Below, one piece after another: positions 50,660-57,462 of a stretch of 64,000 bases of DNA (its first letter is position 1; each line of letters starts with the position of its first letter). The notes beneath the pieces are model-generated. The model was not told where the DNA came from, made no database searches, and was given only the letters and a program-made list of their open reading frames with translations. This DNA is from Corynebacterium singulare. Its GTDB lineage: Bacteria; Actinomycetota; Actinomycetes; Mycobacteriales; Mycobacteriaceae. Location: NCBI RefSeq assembly GCF_000833575.1, contig NZ_CP010827.1, positions 2,219,993 through 2,283,992 on the forward strand, read 5' to 3'. Both the position numbers and the translations under genes were made by a program.

Positions 50660-51910
50660 CTAGCGCTCGTCCGCCAAGCGAAACAACTCGCCGAGAATTC
50701 CCGCGCCATCTTCGCTGATTCCGTTGTGCTGGAAGCGGTTGGTCACCATCGGGCGGAGGTCACGAAAAGTGTGACCCGTAGCGAGAGAATCCTCGAAGGG
50801 GACGAAGATATCGTCGAGGTAGATGGCGGCAGCGGCGATGAGAGGGGCGTCGGAAAGCACAGCGGCGTCATACGGTGGGCTCGTCCACTCGTGGGCAGCG
50901 AGCTCCCCGGCCGCCTGTTTGAATGGGCGCAGCGCTGGGTCCTCATCGAACTGCCAGGGAAAGACATGCTCACCGGTGAGGTAGGTGCCGTCCTCGGCGA
51001 ACTCGGGGAATTCCTCACGCATGCGATGCGCCGCCCACCCTGTGACGGACTGGCCACCGACGCCGCCGTAGATGGACTCATGAATCGCCGCGTACAACGG
51101 CCCGGCCTGGAAGCTCACCCTCTGCCCCACGTCCAGAAGAAAGTCCGAACGCAGGCGCTTCTCCCCGCCCACGGTCCGGAAAGGATCCTCCAGCAGGTAG
51201 CCCAGCGCATCGAACCCGGCACCACGGCCCAGCTCAATGCCGATGGTGCGGAAACGGCGGGAGGACAGACGCTCGCCCGTGGGCAAGAACTCCTCGGAGT
51301 TATCCAGGTGATGGATGATCTCCTCGATGCGCTCCTGCGCCCACGGGAACTGCGCAGTAAAACGGTCGTGGCGCACCTTGAGCTTAGAAAACGTCGTGCG
51401 GTAGAGCTCGTCCGCGCCCTTGGTGAGGGTGGGAAGGCCACCGGTGAGGAAGGCCCGGCCGATAGACTCCGGGAACATCGAAGCATAGGCCGTGATGATG
51501 AAGCCTCCGAAGGACTGGCCGAAGAGATCCCAGCGCTCCTCCCCGAGGTGCTCGCGGAGACGTTCAGCATCACGCACGATGTTGTCCTGGCGCAGTTGGG
51601 CCAAGCGTGTGGCGGTGCGGTCCTCAGCAGGACTCAACTCATCAATCCGGTGGCTGCGTCCAGTACCGCGCTGGTCCATGAGGATCCAGCGGTAGCGCTC
51701 AAGGCCCTTCCCGATGAGCCCGGTGGCACCCGTTGGCCGCGGAGACGGGAAACCCGGCCCTCCCTGGTTATAGAGCAGTGCCGGGTAATGCTCACCGCCC
51801 GGCGGGACAATCTCGCGAGCATAGAGCTCGAAGGAACCCGCAGTGGGGTCCGTGTAGTCCCATGGGACGATGAGGGTGTGTTCCTTGATGGTGTGGCCGA
51901 AGCGTTTCAT
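50660..51910 (-). CDS. Alpha/beta hydrolase, probable proline iminopeptidase (S33)
   Basis: The 416-residue cytoplasmic hydrolase has YNQGGPGFPSPRP, the oxyanion-hole HGGPG-like motif, LMDQRGTGRS, and the nucleophile elbow GQSFGGF. Together these mark the S33 prolyl aminopeptidase family, which frees N-terminal proline from peptides. I take ATG 51910 (MKRFGHTIKEHTLIVP) as the start, because upstream codons lie in the pflA gene and read like noise. The pflA stop is four bases upstream, so the gene is probably translated from the pfl transcript. Why it travels with pfl is not evident. Confidence 0.88.
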   Translation of the reverse strand: MKRFGHTIKEHTLIVPWDYTDPTAGSFELYAREIVPPGGEHYPALLYNQGGPGFPSPRPTGATGLIGKGLERYRWILMDQRGTGRSHRIDELSPAEDRTATRLAQLRQDNIVRDAERLREHLGEERWDLFGQSFGGFIITAYASMFPESIGRAFLTGGLPTLTKGADELYRTTFSKLKVRHDRFTAQFPWAQERIEEIIHHLDNSEEFLPTGERLSSRRFRTIGIELGRGAGFDALGYLLEDPFRTVGGEKRLRSDFLLDVGQRVSFQAGPLYAAIHESIYGGVGGQSVTGWAAHRMREEFPEFAEDGTYLTGEHVFPWQFDEDPALRPFKQAAGELAAHEWTSPPYDAAVLSDAPLIAAAAIYLDDIFVPFEDSLATGHTFRDLRPMVTNRFQHNGISEDGAGILGELFRLADER

Positions 51911-51914
51911 GCTT

Positions 51915-52784
51915 CTAGTAGACCACGAAACCCTCCTCGCGGAATGCATCGCGGATCTTCTCGACGTCTTCCGGTTTCGGCGGCTTGGTGTCCTCGAGTG
52001 TGTATGGGTAACCCAGCTCGCGCCACTTGTCCGCGCCCATGTTGTGGAAAGGCAGGACCTCGACGCGCTCGACGTTGCTCTTCCACCGGGAGACAATCTT
52101 GACCACGTTGGCCACGTTCTCCGGGGAATCAGTCAAGTCGGGCACCACCACGAAACGGATCCACACTGGCTTGCCAATGGCATTGAGGCGGTCACCGAAG
52201 TCGATGGTCGGCTGCAGCTCGCGGCGAGTGACCTCTTTATAGGTCTCCTCGTCACCCGCCTTCACATCCAAAAGCACCAGATCGATGTTGTCCATGTCCT
52301 CATCGCGCACACGTGAGCCTAGGTATCCCGACGTGTCAATCGTCGTGTGAATACCGGCGTCATGGACCTCTTTGAGCAGGCGCCGGGTGAAAGCGATTTG
52401 GAACAGCGCCTCGCCACCCGACAAAGTCAGTCCGCCGCCGGAGGCATTGAAGACAGGCTTATAACGCTTAATGCGCTTCACCACATCGTCGATGCGCTCC
52501 AGGGTGCCGACCTTCATCTCCATCGTGTCCGGGTTGTGGCAGTACTGGCAGCGCAGCGGGCAGCCCGACATGAACATGGTCATGCGGGTTCCAGGGCCGT
52601 CAACGGCGGTCACCAACTCCCAGGAGTGGACGAGGGCGATGTCGCCAGAGCGGCGTGCCTGCATCAACTCTGGGCGGGTGATGTCGTCGAGGTTATTATC
52701 TGTGCCCAAACCGGCGGCGGCGCCGCGCACCTTGTCTCCCTCTTCAGGGGAAAGGTGGACGACGCCGGTAATGCCATCTGCCAT
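51915..52784 (-). CDS. pflA: Pyruvate formate-lyase activating enzyme
   Basis: This radical SAM enzyme installs the glycyl radical on pyruvate formate-lyase. The [4Fe-4S] motif is MSGCPLRCQYCHNPDT with Cys75, Cys79 and Cys82. GGGLTLSGGEALFQ, binding the SAM amino group, and LLDVKAGDEETYKEVTR follow. The 289-residue protein has about 45 residues more at the N-terminus than E. coli PflA (246). Its target Gly is on the separate small protein encoded just upstream, with adjacent reading frames (stop 52785, start 52784). Confidence 0.94.
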   Translation of the reverse strand: MADGITGVVHLSPEEGDKVRGAAAGLGTDNNLDDITRPELMQARRSGDIALVHSWELVTAVDGPGTRMTMFMSGCPLRCQYCHNPDTMEMKVGTLERIDDVVKRIKRYKPVFNASGGGLTLSGGEALFQIAFTRRLLKEVHDAGIHTTIDTSGYLGSRVRDEDMDNIDLVLLDVKAGDEETYKEVTRRELQPTIDFGDRLNAIGKPVWIRFVVVPDLTDSPENVANVVKIVSRWKSNVERVEVLPFHNMGADKWRELGYPYTLEDTKPPKPEDVEKIRDAFREEGFVVY

Positions 52785-53036
52785 TTAGGAGCCCTGGTGG
52801 AAGGTACGGGAGATGACGTCGAGCTGCTGCTCGCGAGTCAGCTTGACGAAGTTGACTGCGTAGCCGGATACGCGAACGGTGAGGTTCGGGTACTTCTCCG
52901 GGTGCTCAACGGCGTCCTCCAGGGTGGACTTGTCCAGCACGTTGATGTTGGCGTGGTAGAGGCCCGAGTCCATGTTGTTGGCGCTGCGGTTGGCCTTCAT
53001 GGTGGCGAGGCGCTCGTCGAAAGTTGGGGTAGCCAT
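52785..53036 (-). CDS. Stand-alone glycyl-radical domain of pyruvate formate-lyase
   Basis: The 83-residue protein matches the last 55 residues of one-piece PflB and the C-terminus of E. coli GrcA (YfiD): [20 protein letters not shown] followed by [20 protein letters not shown]. The radical-bearing Gly is Gly58 in RVSGYAV. The first 25 residues ([20 protein letters not shown]) match neither PflB nor the GrcA N-terminal domain. ATG 53036 has AAAGGAGAA eight bases upstream, so this is a real gene and not the tail of a frameshifted pfl. The large subunit upstream lacks this region, so the protein is probably an essential subunit rather than a repair factor. Confidence 0.9.
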
Positions 53037-53072
53037 GATGTGTTCTCCTTTGGGAAGTGGTGTGAAAAAGGT

Positions 53073-55166
53073 TTACTTGGAATCCATGATGAAGCCGGCG
53101 TCGAGGACACCCACCAGGTTGGTGATGCGCTCCTCAGGCGTGCGGCCCAGACCGGACGGGGTGATGGTGTTCGTCAGCGAGATGCCGTCGAGCGCATCCT
53201 TGTAGTCCAGCTTGCCCACGGACAGCATGGACGCAACCATGCCGTGGTTGTCTGCACCGTTCTCCGGGTTTGCGCCCGGGGCGAACGGAGTACCTGCCTG
53301 GTGGCCAGACGGGAAGGAACCGGTGGCCTTGCCGTAGACCACGTTGGAGGTAATGGTCAGCACGGACTGGGTCGGGATGGCGTTGCGGTACATCGGGATG
53401 GCCTTAATCTTTGCCATCACCGTGTGGACGATGGTGGCGGCGATGTCATCAGCGCGGTCATCGTCGTTTCCGTAGAACGGGAAGTCACCTTCCGTCTTGT
53501 AGTCCACGATAAGTCCGGTCTCATCACGGACCGGGTATACCTTGGCGTACTTGATGGCGGAGAGGGAGTCAGCCACGATGGACAGACCGGCGATACCGCA
53601 GCCCATGGAGCGCACGATGTCAGAATCGTGCAGCGCCATCTCGACAGCCTCGTAGGCGTACTTGTCGTGGCAGTAGTGGATGATGTTGAGGGCCTCGACG
53701 TAGGTTCCGACAACCCAGTCCAGCATCTCCTCGTACTTCTGCCAGACCTCATCGAAGTCGAGCGGGCCATCACCCTGGATAGCCTCGTAGCCATCTACAA
53801 CCTGCTTGCCGCTGACCTCATCGCGGCCACCGTTGATGGCGTAGAGCAGGGCCTTGGCGGCGTTCACGCGAGCGCCGAAGAACTGCATTTGCTTACCGAC
53901 GGCCATCGGGGACACGCAGCACGCAATCGCCGCGTCGTCGCCCCACTGCTCACGAATCTGCTTATCAGACTCGTACTGGATGGACGAGGTCTCAATGGAA
54001 ATGTGGGCACAGAATTCCTTGTAGCCCTCCGGAAGCTGCGGATCCCAGAAGATGGTGATGTTCGGCTCCGGGGACGGGCCAAGGTTGACCAAAGTCTGCA
54101 GGAGACGGAAGGAGGTCTTGGTGACCATGTGGCGGCCATCGCTGCCGAAGCCAGCATCGGTCCAGGTTGCCCAGTATGGGTCGCCGGAGAAGATCTGGTC
54201 GTAGTCCTCGGTACGCAGGAAGCGCACGATGCGCAGCTTGAGCACCAGCTGGTCGATGATCTCCTGGGCATCTTCCTCAGTAATGATGCCAGCGGCAAGG
54301 TCACGCTCGAAGTAAACGTCGAAGAAGGCGGAGAGGCGGCCGATGGACATCGCGGCGCCGTCCTGGGACTTGATGGAAGCCAGGTAGCCAAAGTAGGTCC
54401 ACTGCACTGCCTCGTGAGCGGTCTTCGCCGGCTTGGAGATGTCAAAGCCATAGGACTCAGCCATCTTCTTGAGCTTCTTCAGGGCCTTGATCTGCTCGGA
54501 GTGCTCCTCACGGTAGCGAGCCCAGTGCTCGGAGAATCCAACATCGCCCACTGCATGCTTGGATGCTTCCTTCTCAGCGATGAGGTAGTCCACACCGTAG
54601 AGGGCCACACGGCGGTAGTCACCAATAATGCGGCCGCGGCCATAAGCATCCGGCAGACCAGTGATGATGTGGGAGGAACGAGCAGCGCGGATGCGTGGGG
54701 TGTAAATATCGAAGACGGCGTCGTTGTGAGTCTTGCGGTAGCGGGTGAAGATCTTCTCCACATCCGGGTCGACTTCCTTGCCAGCCTCGAAAATGGCCTG
54801 CTTGACCATGCGCCAGCCGCCGTACGGCATCATGGCGCGCTTGAGCGGGCTATCAGTCTGCAGACCGACGATGACGTTGTCATCCTCACAGATGTAGCCA
54901 GCTGGGAAGGCATCGATGTCCGTCGGGGTATGGGTGTCCACGTCGAAGATGCGCTTCTGACGCTCAACGGACAGGTAATTTTCCTCCAGATGGTCCCAGA
55001 CGCGCTTGGTCTTCTCGGTCGGACCGGCGAGGAAGGAAGCATCTCCGTCGTACGGGGTGTAGTTGCGCTGGATGAAGTCGCGGACATCGATTCCCTCGGT
55101 CCACGGGCCTTCTTCAAAGCCCTTCCAACCCTCAAACTGCACGGATTGCTCAGTTGCGGTGGTCAC
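53073..55166 (-). CDS. Pyruvate formate-lyase, large chain without glycyl-radical domain
   Basis: The cytoplasmic enzyme cleaves pyruvate with CoA to acetyl-CoA and formate under low oxygen. The 697 residues align from the PflB N-terminus through the barrel, with the active-site pair Cys416-Cys417 in IACCVSPMAVGKQMQFFGAR. The chain ends TNLVGVLDAGFIMDSK, equivalent to the point in E. coli PflB about 60 residues before its end; the segment with RVSGYAV is absent. A 36-base gap separates it from the small gene that supplies this domain. GTG 55166 with GGGAG eight bases upstream is the start. Together 697 plus 83 residues exceed the 760 of PflB. Confidence 0.93.
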   Translation of the reverse strand: MTTATEQSVQFEGWKGFEEGPWTEGIDVRDFIQRNYTPYDGDASFLAGPTEKTKRVWDHLEENYLSVERQKRIFDVDTHTPTDIDAFPAGYICEDDNVIVGLQTDSPLKRAMMPYGGWRMVKQAIFEAGKEVDPDVEKIFTRYRKTHNDAVFDIYTPRIRAARSSHIITGLPDAYGRGRIIGDYRRVALYGVDYLIAEKEASKHAVGDVGFSEHWARYREEHSEQIKALKKLKKMAESYGFDISKPAKTAHEAVQWTYFGYLASIKSQDGAAMSIGRLSAFFDVYFERDLAAGIITEEDAQEIIDQLVLKLRIVRFLRTEDYDQIFSGDPYWATWTDAGFGSDGRHMVTKTSFRLLQTLVNLGPSPEPNITIFWDPQLPEGYKEFCAHISIETSSIQYESDKQIREQWGDDAAIACCVSPMAVGKQMQFFGARVNAAKALLYAINGGRDEVSGKQVVDGYEAIQGDGPLDFDEVWQKYEEMLDWVVGTYVEALNIIHYCHDKYAYEAVEMALHDSDIVRSMGCGIAGLSIVADSLSAIKYAKVYPVRDETGLIVDYKTEGDFPFYGNDDDRADDIAATIVHTVMAKIKAIPMYRNAIPTQSVLTITSNVVYGKATGSFPSGHQAGTPFAPGANPENGADNHGMVASMLSVGKLDYKDALDGISLTNTITPSGLGRTPEERITNLVGVLDAGFIMDSK

Positions 55167-55539
55167 TATAATGACTCCCTTCGTAGTTCACACGACGTGT
55201 TGAAATCTGTCGCAGAAGGGCTACGGGTGACGCCAGCTCACGGGTAAATCGATCAACACGTTCGTCACCGAACCCCTCTCTGTAGCCCATAGTAGGGGCA
55301 AAGCCGGGATAGCTCATATCTCGCTTTTTATGTTCCAGATCACTAACGCTTGTCGTTTCGAGCACCCCACTGGTCATCGCTGTCAAAAGAAACGACCGTA
55401 CTATTTGCACCGGGGGTAAATCACCCCCTGACGTGGCGTTTAACACACGTTTCTGGCTCGATCTTGGTGCGTGTCTGTGCCGCGCTCTATTGTTATGCGC
55501 AGTATCTTCATCTCGCCCTCCCCCAAGGAGATCCCTAGC
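55167..55539. promoter_or_regulatory. Divergent promoter region of pfl and the purine permease
   Basis: These 373 bases hold no gene. ACACG-A-CGTGT at 55190-55200 lies just upstream of the pfl ribosome site. GGGGGT-AAATC-ACCCCC at about 55415-55431 is a perfect hairpin that also contains the AC5T pattern reported for RamA sites in C. glutamicum. The permease start has AAGGAG at 55525-55530. I could not identify an oxygen- or redox-regulator box with confidence. Confidence 0.5.
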
Positions 55540-57462
55540 GTGTCCGACACCGCCGCCACCGCCAGCCCAACCACTGTTCCAGTGCATCCCGTGGATGCCG
55601 TTCCACCGGCTCCCAAGCTGGCCGCGCTCGGCCTCCAGCACGTCCTAGCCTTCTACGCCGGCGCTGTCATTGTGCCGCTGCTCATCGCCGGCTCCCTCGG
55701 CCTGGATGAAGCGACGACCATTCACCTCATCAACGCGGACCTGTTGACCTGTGGTCTGGCGACGTTGATCCAAGCGGTGGGCGTCGGCAAGCACATTGGC
55801 GTTCGCTTGCCCATCATCCAGGGCGTGACCACCACCGCGGTGAGCCCCATCATCGCCATCGGCATGAGCGCGGGTGAGCAGCCTCTGCCCACCATTTACG
55901 GCGCGATTATTGCCGCCGGTATCTTCACATTCCTCGCCGCACCGGTTTTCGGACGCGTCCTCAAATACTTTCCGCCGATCGTCACCGGCACCGTGCTGCT
56001 CGTGATGGGTACGTCCCTGCTTGCGGTCTCAGCCAATGACTTCATCAATTACGCCGAGGGGGTTCCTGCCTCACGCGATCTTCTGTATGGCTTCGGCACG
56101 CTCGCCATCATCATTATCGTCCAACGCTTCTTCCGTGGCTTCCTGGGAACGCTGTCAGTACTGCTGGGGCTGGTGATCGGTACCGGCGTGGCCCTCGCGT
56201 TGGGTGACACGTCCTTCGACGGCGTTCGTGAGGCCGATGCCATCGGCGTGACCACGCCCTTCTACTTCGGTATGCCGAAGTTCGACATCATTGCCATTCT
56301 TTCCCTCATCATCGTCATGATCATCACGATGGTGGAGACCACCGGTGATGTTTTTGCCACCGGTGAGATTGTGAAAAAGCGAATCAAACGTGACGATGTT
56401 GTCCGTGCGATTCGCGCCGACGGCCTCTCCACCACCCTCGGCGGTGTGATGAACTCCTTCCCCTACACCTGCTTCGCGCAAAACGTCGGCCTCGTGCGCC
56501 TCACCGGCGTGAAGTCACGCTGGGTTGCCGCCTCGGCCGCAGGCTTCATGATTGTGCTGGGCCTGCTCCCCAAGGCTGCGGCCATCGTCGCCGCTATCCC
56601 CTCCCCCGTTCTAGGCGGTGCTTCCCTGGCACTCTTCGCCAACGTCGCGTGGGCCGGCCTGCAGACCATTGCGAAGGAAGACATTGCTGACGGACGCAAC
56701 GCCGCCATCGTCACCACTGCACTGGGGCTGGCTATGCTCGTCACCTTTAAGCCCGACGTGGCTGAGGCCTTCCCGGAGTGGGCGCGCATCTTCGTCTCCT
56801 CCGGCATGTCCATCGGTGCAATCACCGCCATTCTGCTCAACCTACTGTTCTTCCACATCGGCACGCAGTCTGGTGACGACATCAGCCGCATCGACGGCGC
56901 CGGTGTCTCACTCAAGGAACTCAACGCGATGGAGCGCGAGGACTTTGTCGGTGCGCTACGCCCGCTCTTTAACAATGAGACCTGGCCGCTCGAAGCAGCG
57001 TGGGAATCCCGTCCCTTCGCCGATGTCAGCCAGTTGCGGGAAGCCATTCAGGTCGCCGTGCTCACCGCGTCGCGCGAGCAGCGCCGCACCCTTATCCACG
57101 ACTACCCCGCAATGGATGAACTGCTCTTGGCCGATGCCGACACCGCAGCAACCATCTCCGCCGACCGCGGCTCACTAGCCCTTGATGACCTCGATGACGT
57201 GCAGACGCAGCAGCTTATCGACGTCTCCCAGGCCTACCGCGAACGCTTCGACATGCCCTTCGTTGCCTACCTGGACACCAACGATTCCGCAGACCGAGTC
57301 ATCGACGAAGGTGTACGCCGCCTTGCCAACTCTGATGAGTTGGAGCAGCGTGTCGTCCTGAGCGAAATCATCGAAATTGCCAATGACCGCTTCGACATCC
57401 TGCTTGCCGACGCCAACCCGGTGCGCGCCTACTGGGACCGCAAGTTCACCGAGGTCGAATGA
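55540..57462 (+). CDS. NCS2 purine permease fused to an OHCU-decarboxylase-like domain
   Basis: The 640-residue protein starts at GTG 55540, with AAGGAG nine bases upstream. Residues of about 25-470 form a 12-14 helix nucleobase:cation symporter-2 with the signature QNVGLVRLTGVKSR, which fits the purine (xanthine/urate) branch. The last 165 residues are soluble and resemble 2-oxo-4-hydroxy-4-carboxy-5-ureidoimidazoline decarboxylase, the last enzyme from urate to allantoin: LNAMEREDFVGALRPLF, YRERFDMPFVAYLD and LSEIIEIANDRF. The HP pair of the active site reads DYP here, and the S-x-x-E-Q motif is not seen, so catalysis is doubtful. No uricase genes are nearby. Confidence 0.85.
   Translation: MSDTAATASPTTVPVHPVDAVPPAPKLAALGLQHVLAFYAGAVIVPLLIAGSLGLDEATTIHLINADLLTCGLATLIQAVGVGKHIGVRLPIIQGVTTTAVSPIIAIGMSAGEQPLPTIYGAIIAAGIFTFLAAPVFGRVLKYFPPIVTGTVLLVMGTSLLAVSANDFINYAEGVPASRDLLYGFGTLAIIIIVQRFFRGFLGTLSVLLGLVIGTGVALALGDTSFDGVREADAIGVTTPFYFGMPKFDIIAILSLIIVMIITMVETTGDVFATGEIVKKRIKRDDVVRAIRADGLSTTLGGVMNSFPYTCFAQNVGLVRLTGVKSRWVAASAAGFMIVLGLLPKAAAIVAAIPSPVLGGASLALFANVAWAGLQTIAKEDIADGRNAAIVTTALGLAMLVTFKPDVAEAFPEWARIFVSSGMSIGAITAILLNLLFFHIGTQSGDDISRIDGAGVSLKELNAMEREDFVGALRPLFNNETWPLEAAWESRPFADVSQLREAIQVAVLTASREQRRTLIHDYPAMDELLLADADTAATISADRGSLALDDLDDVQTQQLIDVSQAYRERFDMPFVAYLDTNDSADRVIDEGVRRLANSDELEQRVVLSEIIEIANDRFDILLADANPVRAYWDRKFTEVE

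Follow-up and report, generated by a model that had tools for sequence, protein, structure and literature searches.

Pyruvate formate-lyase encoded by two genes in Corynebacterium singulare and its relatives: a barrel chain and GrcA2 as its probable glycyl-radical subunit

PflB, the pyruvate formate-lyase (PFL) of E. coli, is a single chain of 759 residues. At the pfl locus of Corynebacterium singulare, which lies in a window of 64,000 nucleotides (the whole stretch of DNA analysed; contig NZ_CP010827.1, positions 2,219,993 to 2,283,992), the same barrel, Cys-Cys pair, RVSGYAV loop, activase and fold are encoded, but the last 66 residues of the chain are replaced by a separate gene whose product has a new N-terminus. 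The gene order on the minus strand is a 697-codon barrel gene, an 83-codon gene and pflA. Does such a locus represent a broken gene, a PFL accompanied by a repair protein, or an enzyme made of two chains? Judging from comparative sequence analysis, it very probably encodes an obligate two-chain PFL composed of the large chain and the 83-residue protein, a member of the NCBIfam family GrcA2. A split PFL was not described in the literature titles and abstracts searched, which came mostly from outside subscription journals, nor was it mentioned in the accessible parts of PMC12288474, PMC13252398 and PMC11528403.

The two pfl genes of C. singulare

The barrel gene (53073–55166, minus strand, as for all features below) starts with GTG and encodes 697 residues up to a TAA stop codon (53073–53075). 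It is separated by 36 nt from the glycyl-radical subunit gene (52785–53036), which encodes 83 residues between an ATG start and a TAA stop and is in the same frame as the barrel gene in the window, although the frames are mixed among relatives. The ATG of pflA (51915–52784), which codes for a radical-SAM activase of 289 residues recognized by Pfam and NCBIfam profiles, directly follows the TAA of the small gene. A sequence-only reading of this DNA had proposed a PFL split into two genes, the smaller with its own ribosome site, and both elements are present: the two open reading frames (ORFs) stand on the minus strand at these positions, and AAAGGAG (53045–53051) is found 8 nt before the small gene's ATG with an energy of -8.7. 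The best candidate site of the large gene has a similar energy (-7.9). A simple scan of 51700–55600 detected no terminator-like site on the minus strand and no sigma-70-like promoter.

The large chain is spanned by PF02901 (676 bits) and by itself passes the cut-off of TIGR01255 (Pyruvate formate-lyase 1; 1002 vs 994.2 bits, profile positions 2–679 of 744). It is 58% identical to E. coli PflB lacking its first 18 residues. The adjacent catalytic cysteines of TIGR01255 are present as Cys416 and Cys417 (codons at 53916–53921), aligned to PflB Cys418-Cys419, while the radical glycine of this family is not in the large polypeptide and the Gly motif is confined to the second gene. The alignment ends at F692, the counterpart of F693 in mature PflB, after which comes a tail of five residues (IMDSK) peculiar to this chain. 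The alignment to PflB thus agrees with what had been read from the sequence, namely, a large chain that keeps the cysteine pair, lacks the radical glycine and ends about 60 residues early. Ten positions distinguish split from fused barrels; F at the cut is one of them, and others form a cluster around PflB 578–582. The Gly_radical profile PF01228 is itself cut in two, with positions 1–65 matching the end of the large chain and positions 64–106 matching the small protein.

The small protein passes the cut-off of GrcA2 (NF008341; 167.6 vs 145 bits) and fails those of the GrcA/YfiD spare-part profile TIGR04365 (85.9 vs 170 bits) and of GrcA3 (NF038360; 100.6 vs 158 bits). Its residues 25–81 align with PflB 701–757, whereas the first 24 residues are absent from PFL. 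The glycine of its RVSGYAV motif is residue 58 (codon at 52863–52865), the predicted radical glycine equivalent to PflB Gly734. The description of this protein as a separate glycyl-radical chain with a new N-terminus therefore stands, but it was not a new family: GrcA2 and GrcA3 are already known to NCBI as separate families, under a cofactor/repair name.

Profile searches of the genome (one contig, 2.83 Mb, completeness 100) found no PF01228 gene beyond the two pieces and no PF02901 gene beyond the large chain. The supposition that the split pair has no one-piece PFL beside it is hence upheld, and there is no PFL with its own radical glycine of the kind that a TIGR04365 spare part would serve. 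A class III ribonucleotide reductase (PF13597) was likewise not found in this genome, although PFL is present. These results bear on the idea that GrcA2 only repairs oxygen-cut PFL, as a spare part like that of E. coli. Its NCBIfam name, autonomous glycyl radical cofactor GrcA2, points that way, as does the alignment of residues 25–81 (75 bits) with PDB 6owr, an "Autonomous glycyl radical cofactor" that we take to be YfiD. However, with no radical glycine in the large chain and no other PFL in the genome, nothing is left for GrcA2 to repair, and its gene lies between the barrel gene and pflA, unlike E. coli grcA, which is far from both pflB and pflA. We consider a pure repair function very improbable. 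Since GrcA2 is the only glycyl domain here, it should instead be an obligate subunit.

Distribution and origins of the split

If the locus were a broken gene or a sequencing artefact, a nonsense mutation in pflB would have left a remainder opened by a chance ATG; the shared frame of the two ORFs in the window, with a single TAA between them, would suit such an event. We therefore compared loci across genomes. Gly_radical matches occur in 102 of 201 Corynebacterium genomes, five of which have only a ribonucleotide reductase, leaving 97 with PFL. Among the 96 loci that could be parsed (the remaining genome, G131, has its locus at a contig edge), 95 are split and one, in G122, is fused, which answers for the genus whether split or one-piece pfl prevails. 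Full-length Gly_radical matches in 15 Corynebacterium genomes were considered as PFL and rejected, as they are class III ribonucleotide reductases (assigned by translation for six and by position for the rest). Long open frames at many split loci were also considered as fusions; direct translation shows a stop in every parsed locus of this type except G122.

Outside the genus, GrcA2 exceeds the NCBIfam cut-off in 26 of 198 genomes of a related order (that of G339), and the 23 loci parsed are all split as in Corynebacterium (G1100, G1010 and G1056 were not among the loci fetched). In wider draws GrcA2 is rare, with 2 of 396 phylum genomes and 3 of 394 class genomes above the cut-off, each count including the window's own genome. 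Close homologues carry the NCBI names Brachybacterium and Gulosibacter too, and the split is also seen in a Trueperella metagenome-assembled genome (MAG) whose large frame is broken. From 588 PFL loci confirmed in named genomes, 80 were kept, and the motifs class 72 of these as one-piece (73 of 81 with the E. coli control); the other eight are four from Corynebacterium, the Trueperella MAG, two with broken frames (L233 and L251) and L250, whose motif class is not resolved.

The 95 Corynebacterium loci and the 23 others make up 118 loci with the split of the window, which we call type A. Left out of this set were L183, L184, L185 and L196, named Corynebacterium contigs taken as duplicates of G164, G038, G120 and G105 on account of their identical lengths; L186, L233, L250 and L251, with broken or unresolved frames; and L225, which has a one-piece PFL and an extra small ORF. 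RVSGYAV is in the small chain at all 118 loci, and the large chain has the Cys pair and lacks the Gly motif at 117, the exception being L173. After LDAGF, the large-chain tail varies in both length and letters. The barrel gene ends with TAA at 70 loci, TGA at 26 and TAG at 22, the relative frames of the two genes are distributed as 46 (same), 40 and 32 (chi-square p 0.29), and the spacers range from 3 to 287 nt with a median of 44. Of the 117 loci in which the start of the small gene could be placed (L080 lacks the anchor motif), 115 use ATG and 2 use GTG. The median energy of the small gene's ribosome site is -8.5, compared with -2.6 for 931 internal ATGs; we used energies with this control because a count by loose pattern (117 of 117) is uninformative. 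pflA follows the small gene on the same strand at 117 of the 118 loci (none was found at L288 within the 1.5 kb fetched); at the 116 loci where its first in-frame start is placeable, the distance from the small-gene stop is -8 to 262 nt (median 7).

The use of three stop codons and the random frames mean that the split is neither a sequencing error nor programmed readthrough; a programmed readthrough or frameshift joining the two ORFs is ruled out by the random frames. The broken-gene explanation is refuted by the comparison as a whole, since spacers also vary, the new N-terminus and the ribosome sites are conserved, and the nearest one-piece relatives lack such an N-terminus and join the same two parts by a connector of only about four residues (LDAG-MTEG-LFHANINVL). 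It is scarcely credible for the window either. What the split loci have beyond such one-piece enzymes is a stop codon, a ribosome site and a new N-terminus. The split PFL is confirmed, from sequence comparison, as a real and family-wide arrangement.

Two kinds of irregular locus were seen. The one fused type-A PFL of the 96 Corynebacterium loci is that of G122 (loci L065/L024), in which a sense codon takes the position of the stop found in its relatives and the grcA2 ribosome site and ATG are retained; the fusion could be real or a sequencing error. With the sense codon, two chains are not strictly required in G122. At L186, L233, L251 and L173, the last being one of the 95 Corynebacterium split loci with its large ORF interrupted further upstream, the large chain is broken by a frame break or stop, perhaps through draft assembly errors.

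A second split, type B, was found at another point of PFL, in a distant group, in the search of the 396 phylum genomes (21 fetched loci, L042–L062). Like the window, type B has a two-gene PFL, belongs to the same phylum and has a small chain of about 83 residues. It differs in that the cut is about 10 residues earlier (PflB ~681 to ~684), the large chain, after ending near PflB ~681, carries a divergent tail that often contains cysteines (for example, DCACC and PDCGCC), and the small chain starts with a helix, NLV.M.D. The small chain is GrcA3, as two tested proteins scored 166.5 and 166.9 bits against the cut-off of 158. The names of near homologues are Collinsella and Enorma, which are gut anaerobes. 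The same split with GrcA3 was also seen at L091–L103.

To place the two types, we built a quick-search tree (LG+C20, 661 columns) from 99 barrels; L243 and L257 are absent, having been missed by the trimming pattern. All 13 type-B rows in this tree form one clade (SH-aLRT 100). Type-A rows form a clade together with three one-piece rows (support 92), and the sister of this clade is the one-piece PFL of Bifidobacteria (joint support 100). Forcing A and B into a single clade was rejected (p 7.8e-6, with 42 of the 99 rows), from which it follows that fission of PFL happened at least twice, at cut points about 10 residues apart, and that type B differs from the window in having an independent origin. 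That two independent fissions fell at neighbouring points suggests that this border is a repeatable evolutionary solution. Type A alone as one clade was not rejected (p 0.334 with 42 rows and 0.455 with 99 rows). In the free tree, the one-piece L302, L303 and L306, which have a very short connector, are nested in the split clade, a placement that is not significant. They are possible natural re-fusions, but because a single split clade is not rejected, we claim no re-fusion for them.

Barrels that lack the glycyl domain also occur in the PDB. Entry 38lb resembles the large chain of type B, including its tail, and the chain of 38la ends at the same place; both are titled only Formate acetyltransferase, and their chains are without a glycyl domain. 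The presence of these entries means that structures of such barrels exist. Neither was matched in the search with the small protein or appeared among the best 50 rows of the fold search (library to April 2026).

The predicted two-chain enzyme and its E. coli counterparts

In the enzyme that we propose, the large chain would carry the Cys416-Cys417 pair, the binding sites for pyruvate and CoA and the greater part of the barrel, which the 83-residue GrcA2 would complete with its last strand while also bringing the radical loop. PflA would generate the radical at Gly58 of docked GrcA2, from where it would pass to the cysteine pair of the large chain in the manner of one-piece PFL. Docking may be the task of the GrcA2 N-terminus (codons at 52962–53036, through the conserved G of GLYHAN). 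The suggestion that this 25-residue segment is a docking element fits the comparison: in 106 of 117 placed small chains, the segment through the conserved glycine has 25 residues, and in these 106 chains R9, M13 and G25 are invariant, position 6 is always F or Y, K occupies position 14 in 99 and R17 is replaced in a single chain. The segment is unlike the YfiD N-terminus in both sequence and length. Its conservation makes it the most likely candidate for docking, in which it would take over the recognition role played in E. coli by PflB residues 696–733 and the YfiD N-terminus.

Among the closest known parallels are GrcA/YfiD of E. coli and Y06I of phage T4, which are likewise stand-alone glycyl-radical domains working with a PFL barrel and PflA. 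They differ in that YfiD backs up a PFL having its own glycine, whereas GrcA2 is here the only glycyl domain. According to the accessible parts of PMC12338860, E. coli PflB carrying G734A makes formate only when GrcA is present, which shows that a radical protein can work in trans.

More direct comparisons come from the accessible parts of the study by Andorfer et al. (2021, PMC8683613) on shortened E. coli PFL. YfiD binds cPFL (residues 1–733) with a Kd of 14 uM and is activated on it to the level of intact PFL (15.9 vs 17.2 uM radical). With tPFL (residues 1–695), YfiD binding is not detectable and only 0.5 uM radical is obtained, 32-fold less; the kcat per radical is not lowered (121 vs 105 per second). 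The YfiD N-terminus, 60 residues that are disordered in solution as opposed to the 25 of GrcA2, helps on cPFL (15.9 vs 4.1 uM radical), while on tPFL its removal raises the radical 5.4-fold, to 2.7 uM. The pair of tPFL and YfiD thus has nearly the same cut as the natural pair (PflB 695 vs 693) and is catalytically competent once activated, but it binds and activates poorly; the natural pair has another N-terminus, which is conserved, and a short tail of its own. Given that the large chain ends at most two residues from the tPFL cut, the natural pair should have something that the E. coli pair lacks, and, given the undetectable binding of YfiD to tPFL, its affinity must come from features outside those that the E. 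coli experiments test. Because the E. coli mimic fails to bind, the natural pair should show what was missing. It would offer a natural test system for the docking needs of a glycyl-radical domain in trans and for how PflA reaches a glycine on a separate chain.

We modelled the natural fusion of G122 with AlphaFold2. The model used (81 aligned rows) has a pLDDT of 85.8 and a pTM of 0.88; a first run with 55 rows was poor (pLDDT 69). It superposes on E. coli PFL (2pfl) over 747 residues at 1.5 A with 56% identity (model range 7–803). The junction, 696–724, is disordered, and the N-terminus forms a helix at 726–739, with block means of 52 and 59, a low to moderate confidence. Fused homologues were among the aligned rows and bias the model. 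It places both parts within the PflB fold and fits a two-chain complex without proving it.

The N-terminal extension of PflA had been counted as part of the same story. About 50–65 residues also precede DGPG in PflA of one-piece relatives (L302, L303, L304, L310 and L317), including Bifidobacteria. Being common to these relatives, the extension is not tied to the split. The overall reading, a two-gene PFL with an outsourced glycyl domain that is conserved and has no other PFL beside it, holds without this element.

Oxygen and the possible purpose of the split

In the remaining step of the proposed mechanism, after oxygen has cut the radical loop, a fresh GrcA2 would replace the damaged one. 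By analogy, the arrangement resembles the spare-part repair of E. coli made permanent. The evidence for replacement is mixed, and we put the chance that oxygen is the purpose of the split somewhat under even.

The principal competitor of the replacement idea, which is compatible with the two-chain enzyme, is that the split is unrelated to oxygen and reflects either a neutral early fission that was kept or a means of regulating the enzyme by how much small chain is supplied; we rate it as quite conceivable, if a little short of an even chance. In its favour, the split arose at least twice, once in the lineage named Collinsella/Enorma, which are strict anaerobes, and one-piece PFL is found in aerobic actinobacteria such as Streptomyces and Cryobacterium. 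In addition, the anaerobic class III reductase is commoner in Corynebacterium genomes with PFL (41 of 97) than in those without (21 of 104; odds ratio 2.9, p 0.0008). On the other hand, 56 of the 97 genomes with PFL have no class III reductase, so that many hosts may not live strictly without oxygen. At 88 of 112 loci, the small gene also has a stronger ribosome site than the best large-gene candidate, as a disposable part would need (weaker at 22 and tied at 2; the large-gene median is -6.5); the p value of 1.6e-10 is too small because the loci come from related genomes.

Set against this competitor, the replacement idea in its full form is that PFL was split twice, independently, into a permanent barrel and an exchangeable radical subunit. 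In the actinobacterial version, a new 25-residue dock would have taken the place of the recognition element needed in E. coli, and the subunit would be overproduced, so that oxygen damage consumes no more than a 9-kDa part. We offer this idea tentatively, as having rather less than an even chance. If true, PFL would here be a constitutive replaceable-cofactor enzyme. The two-chain enzyme as such makes the emergency spare part of E. coli the normal enzyme design in a large genus and several related families. The natural pair would also allow an examination of whether exchange of the radical part helps oxygen-exposed bacteria to keep PFL.

A still smaller version of such a part was seen in Silvimonas terrae, where a frame of 66 residues (L225:6369-6566), almost purely a glycyl-radical domain, lies just downstream of a one-piece PFL and is perhaps a minimal spare part.
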